Part shown: positions 13,934 to 23,301 of the stretch, piece after piece
Numbering within the stretch: the stretch's first letter is position 1
Layout of the letters: every line of letters begins with the position of its first letter
Source: Burkholderiales bacterium
Lineage (GTDB): Bacteria; Pseudomonadota; Gammaproteobacteria; Burkholderiales; JAEUMW01
Length of the DNA stretch: 41,545 nucleotides
Reading direction: 5' to 3'
Assembly: GCA_016791285.1 (NCBI GenBank)
Contig: JAEUMX010000009.1
Span: 1-41,545, forward strand
Made by a program: the position numbers and the translations under genes
Notes under the pieces: generated by a model
The model's input: only the letters and a program-made list of their open reading frames with translations
Told to the model about the DNA's origin: nothing
The model's database searches: none

Positions 13934-14401
13934 ATGCTGAGACTCAGCAAGCTCACCGACTACGGCACCGTGATCATGACCTTCATGGCGCGCGCCGAAG
14001 GTCATGTACACAGCGCTCACGAGATCGCCGAGCAGGTCGGCATCGCCGCGCCCACCGTGAGCAAGGTGCTCAAGATGCTCGCGCGCGATGAGCTCGTGGT
14101 TTCGACGCGGGGCGCGCGGGGCGGCTACGTGCTGGCGCGGCCGGCGGCGCAGATCACGATGGCGCAGATCATCAGCGCCATGGAAGGCGGACCGCTCGGG
14201 CTGACGGAGTGCAGCACGACGCCGGGGGTCTGCGTGCAGGAGCGCAGTTGCTCCATTCGCACCAACTGGCAGCGCATCAATCAGGTGATCGTCCGGGCGC
14301 TCGAAGAGGTGTCGCTCGCGGAGATGACCCGACCCGTGGCGCAGCCGATACACATGCGCGATGCCGATCCGGGTGCCCGCCGTGGGCGGGTGCCTGCCTG
14401 A
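13934..14401 (+). CDS. Rrf2-family SUF operon regulator
   Basis: A 155-residue winged-helix regulator ([19 protein letters not shown]; recognition helix [15 protein letters not shown]) with three cysteines, C93, C100 and C106, in the arrangement that binds an Fe-S cluster in IscR-like proteins. It fits the subgroup annotated as SUF system Fe-S assembly regulator. It precedes sufB by 35 bp in the same direction. It probably senses cluster status and controls this operon. Confidence 0.93.
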
Positions 14402-14436
14402 GCGTCGGCGTCGGCGAAACGAGGATACTCAAGACC

Positions 14437-15882
<1,446 letters not shown>

Positions 15883-15905
15883 CGAGATCATAACCAAGGA
15901 TCACC

Positions 15906-16682
15906 ATGCTTCAGATCAGAGATTTGCACGCGAGCGTCGACGGCAAGCCCATCCTCAAGGGCATCACGCTCAACGTGAACGCAGGCGAGGTGCACGCCAT
16001 CATGGGGCCGAATGGCTCCGGCAAGAGCACGCTCGCGAACGTGCTCGCCGGCCGCGCAGGCTACGAAGTGACACACGGAGAGGTCGTCTACCAAGGCAGG
16101 AACCTGCTCGACTTGTCCCCTGAGGACCGCGCACGGGACGGCGTTTTCCTGGCGTTCCAATACCCCGTGGAGATCCCGGGCGTTTCCAACGTCTATCTTC
16201 TGAAGGCGGCGTTGAATGCCATCCGCAAGCACCGCGGCCTGCCCGAGGTCGACGCGATGGATTTCCTCGCGCTCGTGCGCGACAAGATGAAGCTCATGGA
16301 GATGAAGGAGGAAATGCTCTACCGCTCCGTCAACGAGGGCTTCTCGGGCGGCGAAAAGAAGCGCAACGAGATTCTCCAGATGGCGATCCTGGAGCCGGCG
16401 CTGGCGATTCTCGACGAAACCGACTCGGGTCTCGACATCGACGCGCTCAAGGTCGTCGCGAACGGCGTCAATGGCCTGCGCGGGCCGGAGCGCGCCATGA
16501 TCATGGTCACACACTATCAGCGACTCCTCGACTACATCGTGCCCGACTTCGTCCACGTGCTCTCGCAGGGGCGCATCGTGAAATCGGGAGGGCGCGACCT
16601 CGCCCACGAGCTCGAGCGCCGCGGCTACGGCTGGATCGAAGGCGAAGCGAAGGCCGTCGCGGCGGCGCGCGCGGGAGCCTGA
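15906..16682 (+). CDS. sufC: SUF ATPase SufC
   Basis: A 258-residue ABC-type ATPase of the SufBC2D complex. Walker [10 protein letters not shown], signature [11 protein letters not shown], Walker [13 protein letters not shown] and the switch His (VTHYQR) are all present. Soluble, with no membrane domain, as expected. sufD starts five bases after its stop. Confidence 0.98.
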
Positions 16683-16687
16683 GCGCC

Positions 16688-18003
16688 ATGGCGAGCGAAG
16701 CGATCGACCGCATTGTCGCGGATTTCCGGGCGCTCGAGGCCAGTCTGCCGGGACGCGGCGCGGCGTGGCTCGATCACGCGCGGCGCGATGCCCTGGACTG
16801 GTTCGCGGACCGAGGTTTCCCCACCGCGCGTGACGAGGATTGGAAGTACACCAACACTGCGGCGATCGAGCGCCGGCCCATGAAGGCGGTGACGGCGCGA
16901 GGATCGGTGTCGGCGGATCAGGTGCGCGGCCTCGTCTTCGCGGAATTGCCGTGCCACCTGCTGGTATTCCTGGATGGTCGCTTCGATCCGACCTTTTCGT
17001 CGCTCGGCGCGTTGCCCGCTGGCGTCTCCATTCGCAGCCTGGCCGAGGTCATCGCGCAGGACGGCCAGCGCGTCGAGTCGCTGCTGGCGCGGGAACCGGC
17101 GAACGCGTTCGGGGCGCTGAATCTCGCTTTCATGACGGACGGTGTGGTGATCGAGCTCTCCCGGAACGCGGTGGTCGAGCGGCCGATCCATCTGCTCTAC
17201 ATCGCGAGCCAGGCGGAGACCTCCGTGCACTACCGCAATCTCATCGTCGCCGACGAGAATGCGCAGGCGACCGTGGTCGAGCACTATGCGGGTCCGGAGG
17301 GTTGCTCGTACCTCACGAATGCGGTGACGACGATTGTCGGTGCTGCGAACAGCAACGTGGAGCACTACAAGCTGCAGCAGGAAAGCGCGCAGGCATTTCA
17401 CGTGGCGGGAATCCACGCTACCCAGGCCCGGGACAGCCGCTTCATTTCACACTCGATCGCGCTCGGCGGTGCCATCGCTCGCAACGACATCACGACGCGC
17501 CTCGCCGCGGAGGGCGCCGAGTGCACGCTGAACGGGCTCTACATGGTCGGCGGCCGTCAGCTGGTCGATCATCACACGCGCATCGACCACGACAAGCCCC
17601 GCGGCACGAGCCGTGAGTTCTATCGCGGCGTGCTCGACGGGGCCGCGCGTGGGGTCTTCAACGGCAAGGTGGTGGTGCACCCGAACGCGCAGCACACGGA
17701 CGCGCAGCAGTCCAACCACAACCTCCTGCTCTCGAAGGCGGCGCAGGTCGATACCAAGCCGCAGCTGGAGATCTTCGCCGACGATGTCAAATGCACTCAC
17801 GGCGCCACGGTCGGCCAGCTCGACGATGGCATGCTGTTCTATCTGCGCGCGCGGGGGATAGAACCGGAAGTCGCGAAGGCGCTGCTGATCTATGCGTTCG
17901 CCCACGACATCGTCGGGCGCATCCGCCTCGATCCCCTCAAGCGGCGCATCGAACGTCATCTGATTTCGATGCTGCCGGAGGGCGAACGCATCAAGGAGCT
18001 GGT

Positions 18004-18007
<4 letters not shown>
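16688..18007 (+). CDS. sufD: SUF scaffold subunit SufD
   Basis: A 439-residue SufB paralogue and partner. It starts MASEAIDRIVADF, contains DEDWKYTNTA near residue 52, and ends with the beta-helix region shared with SufB (DDVKCTHGATVGQLDDGMLFYLRARGI). The stop overlaps the sufS start (ATGA). Confidence 0.96.
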
Positions 18008-19286
<1,279 letters not shown>

Positions 19287-19287
<1 letters not shown>

Positions 19288-19730
19288 TGGCGGACCTGCG
19301 CGAGCTCTACCAGGAAGTGATCTTCGATCACTACAAGCAGCCGCGGAACTTCCACGCCCTGCCCGGTGCCGACTGCTCGGCGGAGGGTTACAACCCGCTG
19401 TGCGGCGATCGGGTGACCGTCTATCTCAAGACCAAGGACGGGGTCATCGAGGAAGTCTCGTTCGAGGGTTCGGGGTGCGCCATCTCGACCGCCTCGGCGT
19501 CGCTCATGACCGAGGTGCTCAGGGGCAAGTCGCTGGCGGATGTCGAGCAGCTGTTTTCGGGGTTTCATGCGATGGTGACGGAGGCGGAGGCGGCCCCGCA
19601 CCCGGAGCTCGGCAAGCTCGAGGTGCTATCGGGGGTGCGCGAGTTTCCGGCGCGCGTGAAATGCGCCACGCTGGCCTGGCACACGCTGAACGCGGCGCTG
19701 CACCAACAGACTTCCGTGACCACGGAGTGA
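19287..19730 (+). CDS. sufU: SufU, zinc-type sulfur acceptor
   Basis: A 147-residue IscU-fold protein with C39 and D41 (NPLCGD), C64 (GSGCAIS) and C126 (RVKCATLAWHTL), plus the extra residues between the second and third cysteines that distinguish SufU from IscU. In known systems SufU accepts persulfide from SufS by zinc-ligand swapping. The ATG overlaps the sufS TGA by one base. No sufE or sufA is present, so SufU is the likely sole activator of SufS here. Confidence 0.93.
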
Positions 19731-19740
19731 GGCGAGAATC

Positions 19741-20094
19741 GTGAGCGATTGGCAGAGCTTGGCAGATGCGGGAGGCGCGCAGGTGCCGACCGAGCAGTTG
19801 CGGCAGAACGTCATCGAGGCACTGCGGACGGTGTTCGATCCGGAGATCCCGGTCAACATCTACGACCTCGGCCTGATCTACGATCTTGAGGTCGACGATG
19901 CCGGCAAGGTCACGGTACAGATGACCCTGACCGCGCCGGGATGCCCGGTTGCCCAGACCTTCCCCGGCGAAGTCGAGGGGAAGCTCTATGCCGTGCCGGG
20001 TGTCAACGAGGCGATCGTCGATCTGGTCTGGGACCCGCCGTGGGACCAGGACCGGATGACCGAAGCCGCCAAGCTGCAGCTGGGGTTCCTCTAG
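19741..20094 (+). CDS. sufT: SufT, MIP18/DUF59-family Fe-S maturation factor
   Basis: A 117-residue protein with a GTG start, 10 bp after sufU. It shows the DUF59 core: FDPEIPVNIYDLGLIYDLEV, TLTAPGCPVAQ with the conserved Cys, and DLVWDPPWDQDRMTEAAK. Family members assist Fe-S cluster carriage or delivery. Position inside a SUF operon is typical of SufT. Confidence 0.93.
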   Translation: MSDWQSLADAGGAQVPTEQLRQNVIEALRTVFDPEIPVNIYDLGLIYDLEVDDAGKVTVQMTLTAPGCPVAQTFPGEVEGKLYAVPGVNEAIVDLVWDPPWDQDRMTEAAKLQLGFL

Positions 20095-20096
20095 CG

Positions 20097-20414
20097 ATGA
20101 ACTGGATCGATGTCGCGCCCGCCGCGGAGATCGCGCCGGGGCAGTGGAGAACGGTGGATGTCGAGGGGCGGCTGGTAGCCGTCTTCAACCTGGAGGGCGA
20201 GTTCTTCGCCATCGAAGACGTCTGTACCCACGATGGCGGTGAACTCACCGGCGGGGACATCGAGGACGGCTGCATCGCGTGTCCGCGTCACGGTGCGCGC
20301 TTCGACATCCGGACCGGGGCGGTGCTGTCGCCGCCCGCGTACGAGGACGTGCTCACCTATCCGGTGCGGGTGGCGGAGGGCAGGGTGCAAGTGGGTAACG
20401 AAAGCGGAGGCTGA
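20097..20414 (+). CDS. Rieske-type [2Fe-2S] ferredoxin
   Basis: A 105-residue small protein with both Rieske boxes: CTHDGGEL (C43, H45) and CPRHGARFD (C62, H65). There is no membrane anchor or oxygenase domain, so it resembles the soluble ferredoxins of aromatic dioxygenases or NirD. It starts two bases after the sufT stop and therefore belongs to the SUF transcript. It may donate electrons during cluster assembly or serve an unknown oxidoreductase. No reductase is encoded nearby. Confidence 0.93.
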   Translation: MNWIDVAPAAEIAPGQWRTVDVEGRLVAVFNLEGEFFAIEDVCTHDGGELTGGDIEDGCIACPRHGARFDIRTGAVLSPPAYEDVLTYPVRVAEGRVQVGNESGG

Positions 20415-20486
20415 CGAGCCCGGCGGTCCCGTGCCGGAACCGCTGGTGGCGCGCAGCTTCCCGCGATGGTTCGGAGGCTGTGAACG

Positions 20487-20903
20487 ATGACCGGGTTGCG
20501 ATTGCCGTGCGCATTGCAGGCGCGCCTGCAGGATTGGGCGCGAGCCGGCTACCCGAGCGAGACCTGCGGGATCCTGATCGGGCGGTGCGGCGATGAGGAT
20601 GTCCGGGTGGAAGAGGTCCTCGCAGCCCGGAACCTCAACGTGGAGCGGGCGCGCGACCGCTACGAGCTGGATCCTGCCGCCCTCCTGGCGGCCGACGAAG
20701 CAGCGCGCGACCGTGGCCTCGAGATCGTCGGCGTCTGGCACTCCCATCCCGATCATCCCGCTGTTCCCTCCGCGACCGACCGCGAACAAGCCTGGTGCGG
20801 CTGGTCGTACGTGATCGTCTCGGTGTCACGCGGCGGCGTCGAGGAGCTACGCTCCTGGCGCCTGACCGGAACCGACTTCGTCGAGGAGATGATTCGATCG
20901 TGA
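20487..20903 (+). CDS. JAMM/MPN-domain metallopeptidase (Mec-like)
   Basis: A 138-residue zinc peptidase. E25 (SETCG) and the perfect JAMM motif H85-S-H87-x7-S95-x2-D98 (HSHPDHPAVPSATD) are intact. Related bacterial proteins (Mec of Mycobacterium) cleave isopeptide-like bonds to a C-terminal Gly-Gly, for example releasing cysteine from CysO-cysteine. It begins 72 bp after the Rieske gene with GGAGG upstream. Its stop overlaps the GTG start of the ubiquitin-like/rhodanese/E1 fusion (GTGA), so the two products are made together. Likely substrate: the ubiquitin-like domain of that fusion. Confidence 0.92.
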   Translation: MTGLRLPCALQARLQDWARAGYPSETCGILIGRCGDEDVRVEEVLAARNLNVERARDRYELDPAALLAADEAARDRGLEIVGVWHSHPDHPAVPSATDREQAWCGWSYVIVSVSRGGVEELRSWRLTGTDFVEEMIRS

Positions 20904-22354
20904 GCACGGTGACCATTCGTATTCCCATGCCGCTGCGCAGTTACACCGGCGGCCTGGACGAGGTGCAGGTCGACGCCGCGACCGTCGGCGAAGCGCTGCA
21001 GCGCCTGGGTGCGCTGCACGGCGGCATCCTCGATCGGGTGCTCGCGGGCGAGGGCGAGCTGCGGCAGTTCGTGAACGTGTTCGTCGGCAACCGCAACGCG
21101 CGCACCCTCGGCGGGCTCGCGGCGCGGCTCGAGGGGGGCGAGGTGATCTCGATCGTCCCCGCGGTGGCGGGCGGGGCGACGGGCAAAGCGCGGGAGCGCC
21201 GGCTGGCCGAGCTCAGGCGCGCCATCCCCGAAGTGACGCCGGCCGAAGCACTGGCGCTGCAGGCGCAGGGCGCGGCGCTCATCGACGTGCGCGAGCCCGA
21301 CGAGATCGCGCAGGGCAGCCCACCCGGCGCGCATCGCCTGGGGCGCGGCTACCTCGAGCTGCGCATCGAGGAAGCGGTGCCCGACTTCGAGCGGCCCATC
21401 GTCGCCATGTGCAACGGCGGCGTGCGGTCGCTGTTCGCCGCGGAGGATCTGCAGCGGATGGGTTACACGCGCGTGTCCTCCATGATCGGGGGCTTCAGCC
21501 GCTGGAAGAACGAAGGTCTGCCGGTGGAGATTCCCGCGCGCCTCGACGCACTCGATCGCGAGCGTTATTCGCGTCATCTCCTGATGCCGGAGGTCGGCGA
21601 GGCAGGCCAGCTCAAGCTGCGGGCCGCGCGTGTCCTGCTGGTCGGCGCGGGCGGGCTGGGCAGCCCGGCGGCCTTCTATCTCGCCGCGGCCGGCGTCGGC
21701 ACGGTCGGCCTGGTCGACCACGACGTGGTGGATCGCAGCAATCTGCAGCGCCAGATCCTGCACAGCGACGATCGCGTCGGCATGGCCAAAGTGGTCTCCG
21801 CGCGCCGGACGCTGGAGGCGCTCAATCCGGGCGTCACGGTCATCGCCCACGAGACACATCTTTCCAGCGCCAACGTGGACGAGATCTTCGAGGGCTACGA
21901 TCTCGTGGTCGACGGTTCCGACAACTTCCCCACCCGTTACCTCGTCAGCGACGCCTGTCTGAAGCAGGGCCTCGCACATGTCTACGGTGCGGTGTACCGC
22001 TTCGAAGGGCAGGTCGCCGTCTTCTGGCCGGCGTATGCGAAGCGGCGCGGCCCCTGCTACCGCTGCCTCTACCCCGAACCGCCGCCGGCCGAATTCGCGC
22101 CATCCTGCGCCGACGCGGGCGTGCTCGGCGTGCTGCCGGGCGTGATCGGGCTGCTGCAGGCGACCGAAGCGATCAAGCTGCTGCTCGGCATCGGCGATCC
22201 GCTGGTGGGCCGCATGCTGTGCTTCGACGCGCTGCGCGCACAGTTCGTCGAGCTTGCCCTCGACCGCGATCCGCATTGCCGGTACTGCGCGGACGGCGCG
22301 CGTTTCCCGGGCTATATCGACTACGAACGATTTTGCGCGAGTTCGACGGCATGA
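20900..22354 (+). CDS. Single-chain ubiquitin-like carrier / rhodanese / E1-like adenylyltransferase
   Basis: A 484-residue protein read from a GTG overlapping the JAMM stop. Residues 1-92 are a MoaD/ThiS/CysO-like beta-grasp domain ending in PAVAGG (G91-G92), where free carriers normally terminate. Residues about 108-212 are a rhodanese domain with active-site C171 in CNGGVRS. Residues about 218-484 are a MoeB/ThiF E1 domain: GAGGLGSP (249-256), LVDHDVVDRSNLQRQ, and zinc cysteines C386/C389 and C460/C463. It also has C403 in PSCADAGVLG at the position of the catalytic Cys of human MOCS3. The reading frame is continuous across both junctions. MoeZ and MOCS3 have the order E1-rhodanese; here rhodanese comes first. 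Its stop overlaps the cysM-like start (ATGA). Confidence 0.93.
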   Translation: MSTVTIRIPMPLRSYTGGLDEVQVDAATVGEALQRLGALHGGILDRVLAGEGELRQFVNVFVGNRNARTLGGLAARLEGGEVISIVPAVAGGATGKARERRLAELRRAIPEVTPAEALALQAQGAALIDVREPDEIAQGSPPGAHRLGRGYLELRIEEAVPDFERPIVAMCNGGVRSLFAAEDLQRMGYTRVSSMIGGFSRWKNEGLPVEIPARLDALDRERYSRHLLMPEVGEAGQLKLRAARVLLVGAGGLGSPAAFYLAAAGVGTVGLVDHDVVDRSNLQRQILHSDDRVGMAKVVSARRTLEALNPGVTVIAHETHLSSANVDEIFEGYDLVVDGSDNFPTRYLVSDACLKQGLAHVYGAVYRFEGQVAVFWPAYAKRRGPCYRCLYPEPPPAEFAPSCADAGVLGVLPGVIGLLQATEAIKLLLGIGDPLVGRMLCFDALRAQFVELALDRDPHCRYCADGARFPGYIDYERFCASSTA

Positions 22355-23301
22355 GAAGCGACGGCTCCGATGCCCCGCGCCCGCACCCGCTGCTGACGGG
22401 GATCGGCGAGACACCACTGGTGGAGATCGGGCTCGTGCGCGAGGTGGCGAGCGGTTGCCGCCTTTTCGCAAAGTTGGAGAGCGTGAACCCCGGCGGCTCG
22501 GTGAAGGACCGGCCGGTCGCCCGCATGCTGATGCAGGCCCAGGCGGCGGGCCGCTTCGCGGGCGGGCGCCGGCTGCTCGATTCCTCTTCGGGGAACGCCG
22601 GCATCTCCTACGCGATGCTCGGCGCGGCCCTGGGTGTTCCGGTCACCATCGTCGTGCCCGGCAACGCGAGCCAGGAGCGGCTGGAGCGCATCGCCGCGCA
22701 CGGGGCCGAGCTCGTCATCACCGACCCCATCGAAGGCTACGACTTCGCGCTGCGCGAGGCGCACCGGCTGGCCGAAGAACAGCCGGAGCGGTATTGGTAC
22801 TGTGATCAATACTCCAACCCCGACAACTGGCGCGCCCATTACGAGGGGACCGGGAGCGAGATCCTGCGCCAACTCGATGGACATGGGTTCGCCGCGCCGG
22901 ACGCGTTCGTGGCCGGGGTCGGGACCGGCGGCACGCTGACGGGTGCCGGGCGGAGGCTGCGCGAGGTCCGCGCCGACACGTGGATCGCGGCCGTCATCCC
23001 GGAGACGTTCCCGGGTATCGAGGGGCTGAAGCCGCTCGGCCATCCGGGCGACATCGTGCCGAAGATCCTCGACGAGTCCCTCATCGACGAGCGCATCCCG
23101 GTCACGCTCGACGATGCGCTCGCCATGTGCCGGCGCCTCGTGCGCGAGGGCCTCTTCGTGGGTCCGTCCTCCGGCGCGTTCGTGCACGGCGCGCTCAAGC
23201 TCGCGGCGAGCGGGCGCTTCCGCACCATCGTCACCGTGCTTTCGGACACCGGCGAGCGCTACGTCTCGACGGGGATGTGGAAGCGGGAAGAAGGGCCCTA
23301 G
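22351..23301 (+). CDS. CysM-like PLP-dependent cysteine synthase
   Basis: A 316-residue fold type II PLP enzyme. NPGGSVKDR carries the PLP lysine, followed by SSSGNAG, GVGTGGTLTGAGR and VGPSSGAF. These are the signatures of O-acetylserine sulfhydrylase and CysM. In Mycobacterium, CysM uses a thiocarboxylated carrier (CysO-COSH) as sulfur donor and O-phosphoserine as acceptor. The adjoining E1, carrier and JAMM genes make that reaction likely here, although substrate choice cannot be read from motifs alone. Last gene of the operon. Its TAG shares the palindrome CTAG with the stop of the convergent lemA. Confidence 0.92.
   Translation: MRSDGSDAPRPHPLLTGIGETPLVEIGLVREVASGCRLFAKLESVNPGGSVKDRPVARMLMQAQAAGRFAGGRRLLDSSSGNAGISYAMLGAALGVPVTIVVPGNASQERLERIAAHGAELVITDPIEGYDFALREAHRLAEEQPERYWYCDQYSNPDNWRAHYEGTGSEILRQLDGHGFAAPDAFVAGVGTGGTLTGAGRRLREVRADTWIAAVIPETFPGIEGLKPLGHPGDIVPKILDESLIDERIPVTLDDALAMCRRLVREGLFVGPSSGAFVHGALKLAASGRFRTIVTVLSDTGERYVSTGMWKREEGP

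Follow-up and report, generated by a model that had tools for sequence, protein, structure and literature searches.

A sulfur-carrier domain fused ahead of its rhodanese-E1 enzyme, with an invariant internal Gly-Gly and a linked JAMM gene, as a probable precursor in a Burkholderiales bacterium

Sulfur carriers of the ThiS/MoaD fold hold a thiocarboxylate on the final glycine of a Gly-Gly motif, and the Mycobacterium tuberculosis pathway described in PMC3227635 proceeds from carrier thiocarboxylation through cysteine formation to release catalysed by a JAMM protease. A comparable set to this CysO-CysM-Mec+ system with MoeZ (a CysO-like carrier, a JAMM, a rhodanese-bearing E1 and a cysteine synthase) is encoded on contig JAEUMX010000009.1 of a Burkholderiales bacterium (assembly GCA_016791285.1), a stretch of 41,545 nucleotides hereafter called the window. 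Unlike the mycobacterial system, the window fuses the carrier ahead of the rhodanese-E1 in a single gene (20900-22354, forward strand), so that the Gly-Gly is internal, and it places the rhodanese before the E1. MoeZ has its rhodanese domain at the C-terminus (PMC3227635), whereas in the window chain the rhodanese spans residues 113-205 and the E1 residues 223-461. Judging from sequence comparison, we consider it probable that this gene encodes a precursor of a CysO-like carrier and a rhodanese-E1, that the JAMM cuts it after Gly92, and that the thiocarboxylated carrier serves the cysteine synthase.

Several other described systems resemble the chain in part. MoeZ, MOCS3 and Uba4 share the Uba4-type cysteine in the E1 domain (C403 here) but have the order E1 then rhodanese. 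Rhodanese-then-E1 is the order of the PRK08762/NF006444 rhodanese-MoeB family, of which residues 98-482 form a full member (617.9 bits against a cut-off of 449, model positions 3-386 of 387), although that model begins only after the carrier; on the MoeZ model NF005902 the chain stays below the cut-off (361.8 against 647). In M. tuberculosis MoaX and Deinococcus MoaD-MoaE, an internal carrier Gly-Gly is likewise followed by another working domain, and a cut after it is needed. DRJAMM makes this cut in Deinococcus MoaD-MoaE, leaving a C-terminal glycine (PMC8832034), and MoaX has to be cleaved between Gly82 and Ser83, the protease being left unidentified in PMC4326299. The partner there, MoaE, uses the sulfur, whereas in the window the partner is the activating enzyme.

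Carriers joined to their own E1 occur in archaea and some bacteria, with MoaD-MoeB fusions reported from Thaumarchaeota, Rokubacteria and NC10, and MoaD with MoeB-rhodanese mainly from some Euryarchaeota, possibly by transfer from Acidobacteria (PMC11237513, 2024); the available text of that paper does not state the domain order of the rhodanese form and does not treat JAMM linkage, Gly-Gly conservation or split precursors. Operon types 4b-4c of Iyer et al. 2006 (PMC1779556) unite a ThiS/MoaD-like carrier, a JAB protein, an E1-rhodanese and a cysteine synthase, but with the carrier separate, and the window-type fusion is not among them as far as the accessible text goes. Bacterial ubiquitin-like (Ubl) conjugation systems with an E2 differ from this locus, where a Pfam scan of 12 window neighbourhood proteins returned no match to an E2-like family. 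With JAMM-processed linear Ubl fusions the locus shares a conserved Gly-Gly at the junction and an intact-motif JAMM encoded alongside. The novelty that the original prediction saw in the domain order was thus overstated, given the NF006444/PRK08762 family and the carrier-E1 fusions of PMC11237513. Within a partial literature search, we recognised no description of the proteobacterial carrier-rhodanese-E1 order together with its JAMM or its precursor tails.

The fusion gene is a single stop-free frame of 484 codons running from a GTG at 20900 to the stop at 22352-22354. All three domain calls exceed the curated Pfam cut-offs: ThiS at residues 7-92 (PF02597, 5.6e-08), Rhodanese at 113-205 (21236-21514; PF00581, 3.3e-14) and ThiF at 223-461 (21566-22282; PF00899, 1.8e-78). 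The frame remains open 5′ of 20900, with an alternative GTG at 20795, but the start at 20900 is favoured by a four-base GTGA overlap with the JAMM stop and by the starts of the homologues. The ThiS/MoaD-like, CysO-like carrier domain covers residues 1-92 (20900-21175); the closest PDB sequences to its residues 3-92 are 4n6e_B, a ThiS/MoaD family protein, and 3dwg_C, labelled cfp10A, from a structure that also contains cysteine synthase B. We take both to be CysO proteins, 3dwg_C being presumably that of M. tuberculosis.

The rhodanese active-site cysteine is C171 in the motif CNGGVRS (codon 21410-21412), and the MoeB/ThiF-type E1 domain contains the Uba4/MOCS3-like C403 (codon 22106-22108) together with C386, C389, C460 and C463, which we assume to have the zinc role that they have in MoeB/ThiF. 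C403 aligns to the Chaetomium Uba4 cysteine in 6yub, a position occupied by lysine in the Uba4 chains of 6yuc and 6z6s, and its counterpart in Uba4 is presumably catalytic. The E1 domain aligns in sequence to Uba4 and MoeB, and its top Foldseek matches are ThiF, MoeB and Uba4. All six cysteines are invariant in 60 of 60 aligned fused chains. The architecture and key residues read from the DNA by the original prediction, namely one frame joining ThiS/MoaD-like, rhodanese and E1 domains around a buried Gly-Gly, with C171, C403 and the further E1 cysteines in place, are therefore borne out.

The carrier domain ends in ISIVPAVAGG, with Gly91-Gly92 (codons GGCGGG, 21170-21175) at positions 91-92 of 484. 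Since the Gly-Gly is internal as encoded, the free carboxylate needed for adenylation is absent. This junction Gly-Gly is present in 118 of 118 fused chains, comprising the window and 117 of the 120 homologues listed, with PAVAGG in 116 chains and PAIAGG and PADAGG in one each. Across 60 aligned chains, the mean entropy is 0.02 bits for residues 87-92 and 1.90 bits for residues 93-100, the weakly conserved opening of the linker (residues 93-112; 21176-21235), compared with 1.34 bits for carrier residues 2-86, 0.94 for the rhodanese and 0.68 for the E1. The carrier tail is thus held as tightly as the invariant cysteines, while the adjoining linker is not. An AlphaFold model built on a 60-row alignment (mean pLDDT 88.6, pTM 0.67) has its only run of three or more residues below a pLDDT of 50 at residues 89-95, which predicts a flexible Gly-Gly junction. 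A frameshift that would free the Gly-Gly was rejected for the window: the -1 frame stays stop-free for 40 codons after the Gly-Gly, and the +1 frame stops after 19 codons.

The fusion is far beyond chance and is not a unique oddity. Among the best 120 of 7999 scored proteins, 117 exceed 440 residues and have the same carrier, rhodanese and E1 architecture; one of these, P0102, lacks the ThiS Pfam label yet has the Gly-Gly motif. The other three listed homologues (P0108, P0109, P0117) have 390 residues and no carrier. Named isolates with fused homologues are Aromatoleum diolicum (locus L004), Methylonatrum kenyense (L008) and Inmirania thermothiophila (P0090). Within 369 genomes drawn evenly from one class, which include the genome G004 chosen because it holds the locus, a rhodanese-E1 of this type occurs in 41 at E ≤ 1e-110, five of them fused over the whole model. 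Within 300 genomes of one order, including G003 chosen for the same reason, the carrier profile at E ≤ 1e-15 matched 11, of which two are fused and three split in this operon. NCBI names the listed fused homologues plainly 'MoeB', which makes the carrier and its likely cut easy to overlook; JGI names give all three domains for some.

Split relatives encode the carrier directly before a separate rhodanese-E1, and the two states interconvert repeatedly according to the E1 tree. On a rhodanese-E1 tree of 390 columns (IQ-TREE quick; 110 of 217 fused or split rows retained after thinning, with seven others added), the state changes 17 times, and at least 8-9 of these changes are forced by starred (strong) branches; 200 label shuffles gave a mean of 29 changes and a minimum of 24, and the unthinned FastTree gave 16. 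Several all-fused clades stand on starred branches. Gains and losses are not distinguishable in the thinned tree, and 43 of its 114 inner branches are weak. Of the 90 'split' rows of the unthinned tree, seven were checked in loci and 83 are known only as database proteins of 360-400 residues.

All seven split operons examined (L002, L003, L005, L006, L007, L153, L154) encode a carrier with a PAVAGG end followed by extra residues, numbering 12, 10, 2, 6, 6, 15 and 17, respectively, so the split carriers look like precursors too. All 97 relatives of the L003 carrier drawn from the database keep P..xGG, and 73 of them have at least one residue past the Gly-Gly: 24 end at it, 1-3 extra residues follow in 31 and 7-20 in 38, and four have more and look like fused or rearranged pieces. 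The tailed query biases this sample towards tails, and part of it is from contigs of 500-1000 bases. The original prediction named a relative with a stop between residues 92 and 108 as a refutation, and such stops do occur, falling 2-17 residues after the Gly-Gly in the seven split loci; this is no argument against processing, because those carriers still have residues past the Gly-Gly, and it means that the fusion itself is dispensable. That the carrier is kept before a stop, a few residues or about 390 residues alike is best explained by removal of whatever follows the Gly-Gly.

These conservation data bear on the alternative that survives best, although we consider it unlikely: the carrier domain may never be released and may serve the E1 or its partners in docking or regulation, the Gly-Gly being a relic. 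In the fused chains the residues past the Gly-Gly do run straight into the rhodanese domain, and there is a precedent in Ubl domains on some ThiF proteins, which co-occur with a separate ThiS and for which a different role has been suggested (PMC1779556). Nine fused genomes besides the window were examined (loci L001, L004, L008, L111, L112, L113, L115, L151 and L152), and five of them (G001, G004, G173, G485, G506) contain another ThiS/MoaD-like match. A relic Gly-Gly would be expected to drift, yet it is kept in every fused chain beside a drifting linker; the same P..xGG is kept throughout the split relatives, and fusion and splitting recur. In the remaining four of the nine genomes no other carrier was found with the same profile at E ≤ 0.001, a search that a remote ThiS could escape. 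The docking-only role offered in the original prediction is accordingly disfavoured.

The candidate processing protease is encoded immediately upstream, in a frame for a 138-residue JAMM/MPN+ metalloprotease (Prok-JAB, PF14464, 7.4e-29; 20487-20903, forward strand). Its active-site residues E25, H85, H87, S95 and D98 are all present, with the motif HSHPDHPAVPSATD starting at residue 85; the nearest PDB sequence is 2kcq, with further matches to JAMM1 (5ld9/5lda). A JAMM with the intact motif HxH(x7)SxxD lies directly upstream of the fusion in the window and in nine of nine other fused genomes, and a JAMM is also present in all seven split operons. Loci were surveyed in 40 of the 41 genomes matching in the class set, all but G178, which is in two fragments. 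Among these 40 loci, 32 are solo rhodanese-E1 loci with neither Ubl nor JAMM in the fetched stretch, some of which end at contig ends. Absence of JAMM from the solo genomes was ruled out, since 25 of the 32 have a Prok-JAB match above the Pfam cut-off somewhere; solo and fused genomes thus differ in JAMM linkage, not presence.

Linkage was also compared with the state of the carrier end. Among 106 Ubl frames in the survey loci, two without Gly-Gly set aside, a same-strand JAMM lies within 2.5 kb of 19 of the 22 carriers that are fused or have at least four residues past the Gly-Gly, but of only eight of the 82 with 0-3 residues, a contrast confounded by phylum. Within the proteobacterial sets (L001-L009 and L111 on), the corresponding counts are 16 of 16 and seven of 12, the seven including the split carrier of L005 with its two extra residues. 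The fused or long-tailed carriers without a JAMM within this distance are those of L032, L042 and L045.

A second alternative, which we judge improbable, is that another protease cleaves the chain and the linked JAMM only clears the carrier of cysteine (the Mec+ role) or other adducts. MoaX of M. tuberculosis, cut after its Gly-Gly by the protease not identified in PMC4326299, offers a parallel, and JAMMs also adjoin carriers already ending at the Gly-Gly (L136, L138, L140, L156, L159). Linkage as stand-alone proof of processing is ruled out by these free-Gly-Gly carriers. Against this alternative stand the invariable placement of the JAMM directly upstream of the fusion in the other fused genomes and the proteobacterial contrast between 16 of 16 fused or long-tailed carriers and seven of 12 short-tailed ones. 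L136, L138 and L140 represent a third arrangement, in which a carrier ending in PSVAGG without a tail is followed by a JAMM and then a rhodanese-E1; in the tree, from which L140 is absent, L136 and L138 group on a starred branch of their own.

The split loci add a feature at the RNA level. In five of the seven (L002, L003, L005, L006, L007) the Gly-Gly codons read GGAGG, a Shine-Dalgarno sequence, and the E1 start follows 4-5 bases later, as ATG in four loci and ATA in L002; the database entry P0282 (389 residues), on a contig as long as that of L002, reads from MKARERR. L153 and L154 have GGCGGC and GGGGGT at this place, with E1 starts 69 and 50 bases on. GGAGG is thus at the junction in five of five of the former loci versus none of ten fused loci, the window included (Fisher test, 3e-4, uncorrected for kinship). 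The Gly-Gly codons of the GGAGG loci would then double as a ribosome-binding site for the E1 gene, which overlaps the carrier gene, and the extra residues of these carriers would be a by-product of that overlap. One motif at the split junctions would accordingly have both a protein role and an RNA role.

This overlap invites a third alternative, that an internal translation start also yields a separate E1, so that the fusion occurs alongside free E1 and ties up only some of the carrier. The GGAGG arrangement of the split relatives and an MKA motif, where split E1s start, in the linker of seven of the 118 fused chains would fit it. It is nonetheless very unlikely, because GGAGG is found in none of the ten fused loci, no ATG, GTG or TTG lies in frame between residues 93 and 111 of the window chain, and an internal start would leave the carrier Gly-Gly unfreed. 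That two adjacent genes were wrongly joined in assembly or gene calling, as the many split relatives and the many metagenomic sequences might suggest, is hardly credible given 117 fused homologues among the 120 listed and several starred all-fused clades, and the isolates already refute it for the family.

We therefore return to the precursor proposal, in which the chain would yield both a CysO-like carrier of ubiquitin fold and an activating enzyme of the rhodanese-E1 type. The JAMM, whose gene overlaps the fusion gene on its upstream side, would cut after Gly92 to give the carrier a free Gly-Gly end, which the E1 domain would then adenylate. By analogy with MoeZ and Uba4, a persulfide on rhodanese Cys171, with participation of E1 Cys403, would lead to the thiocarboxylate. 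Following the M. tuberculosis CysO-CysM-Mec+ cycle, the downstream cysteine synthase and the thiocarboxylated carrier would form a carrier-cysteine adduct, from which the same JAMM would free cysteine.

Cleavage after Gly92 is well supported by comparison, given the invariant Gly-Gly, the variable linker, the linked JAMM, the tailed split carriers and repeated fusion and fission. JAMM-family enzymes offer precedents beyond DRJAMM: the archaeal enzyme CsRpn11 cleaves a ubiquitin precursor exactly behind its Gly-Gly, and CsJAMM cleaves SAMP precursors (PMC6043591). The cut after G92 put forward in the original prediction thus stands by comparison, while the 'self-processing' attached to it does not, as the candidate JAMM is encoded by a separate adjacent gene.

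Several observations weigh against the proposal. The support for cleavage is comparative throughout. HvJAMM1 is reported to be able to cut linear fusions without a diglycine (PMC8832034), so that an invariant Gly-Gly speaks for carrier use more than for a cut, and JAMMs adjoin the free-Gly-Gly carriers named above. The window cysteine synthase falls under the cut-off for each of the 25 NCBIfam models shown, and SufS, as a source of the rhodanese sulfur, would spend cysteine to make cysteine. Cysteine is perhaps not the sole product, because cysM is absent beside the fusion in L001, L008 and L113.

A more tentative extension, possible but less than even in our estimate, is that the carrier-E1 chain is a single inactive precursor in which one JAMM both matures the chain and releases the product, so that cysteine delivery to the Fe-S (iron-sulfur) operon is gated by one protease and carrier and E1 are fixed at 1:1. 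On this single-JAMM reading, whatever follows the Gly-Gly would be cut off, so that tail length could vary from two residues up to an entire enzyme, and recurrent fusion and fission would be accounted for.

The neighbouring genes place the set in a sulfur context. Directly downstream, and overlapping the fusion by four bases (ATGA), lies a cysteine-synthase-like pyridoxal phosphate (PLP) enzyme (22351-23301, forward strand; PF00291, 1.6e-63) with its PLP lysine motif at K52; it scores 279.5 bits on TIGR01136 cysKM, below the cut-off of 344. A cysteine synthase adjoins the fusion in six of the nine other fused genomes, the exceptions being L001, L008 and L113, and is present in all seven split operons.

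Upstream of the JAMM, on the same strand, are a Rieske-type ferredoxin (20109-20414; PF00355), found at the same place in L151-L154, a SUF-associated SufT-like protein (19741-20094; TIGR02945, 153 bits, cut-off 143.4), SufU (19287-19730; TIGR01994, 157.6 bits, cut-off 92.5) and the cysteine desulfurase SufS (18004-19287; Aminotran_5; TIGR01979, 606.9 bits, cut-off 475.1, computed on the frame from 17911). The likely SufS start is 18004, where an ATGA overlaps the sufD stop. About 28 N-terminal residues of this SufS, with a CAECP motif, precede the family match, and its top NCBIfam match by score is an encapsulin-cargo desulfurase model, under that model's cut-off. Farther upstream lie sufD (SUFBD core), an ABC-type (ATP-binding cassette) ATPase (ABC_tran) that is probably sufC from its position, and sufB (SUFBD core).

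Across 14209-23301, the carrier, JAMM, E1 and cysteine-synthase set thus comes after the suf genes via the sufT-like gene and the Rieske ferredoxin. The same suf-linked order, sufD-sufS-sufU-sufT-Rieske-JAMM-carrier-rhodanese-E1-cysM, is common to four other genomes of one order, two fused (L151, L152) and two split (L153, L154); no suf genes were found in the fetched stretches of the fused loci other than the window, L151 and L152. Because the window genes sit behind the suf operon, the likely customer would be cysteine and sulfur supply for Fe-S assembly. Mycobacterial pathway genes are up-regulated mainly under oxidative stress (PMC3227635), and a speculative way round the SufS objection is that SUF receives cysteine under such stress by means of a thiocarboxylate carrier.

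Other carriers with buried Gly-Gly were seen in the survey. In Chloroflexi, a carrier is fused straight to a ThiF-type E1 without rhodanese (L012:8702-9961 and L042:9933-11255), with a JAMM close to the first and none found in the fetched stretch of the second; bacterial carrier-E1 fusions of this kind are limited to Rokubacteria and NC10 according to PMC11237513, outside which groups these two fall. Two further fusions with buried Gly-Gly, to DUF4395 (L031:5058-5822) and to a NIL domain (L040:872-1429), each have a JAMM immediately upstream.

Collectively, this family offers a clear and testable example in which a prokaryote would make a ubiquitin-like protein in precursor form, joined to the enzyme that activates it. 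Should this hold, it would lend weight to the proposal by Iyer et al. (2006; PMC1779556) that JAB (JAMM) proteases free buried ThiS or MoaD carriers from fusions. The natural fused and split pairs provide material for asking what the fusion does, and the link to cysteine synthase suggests a carrier-dependent cysteine route in proteobacteria.

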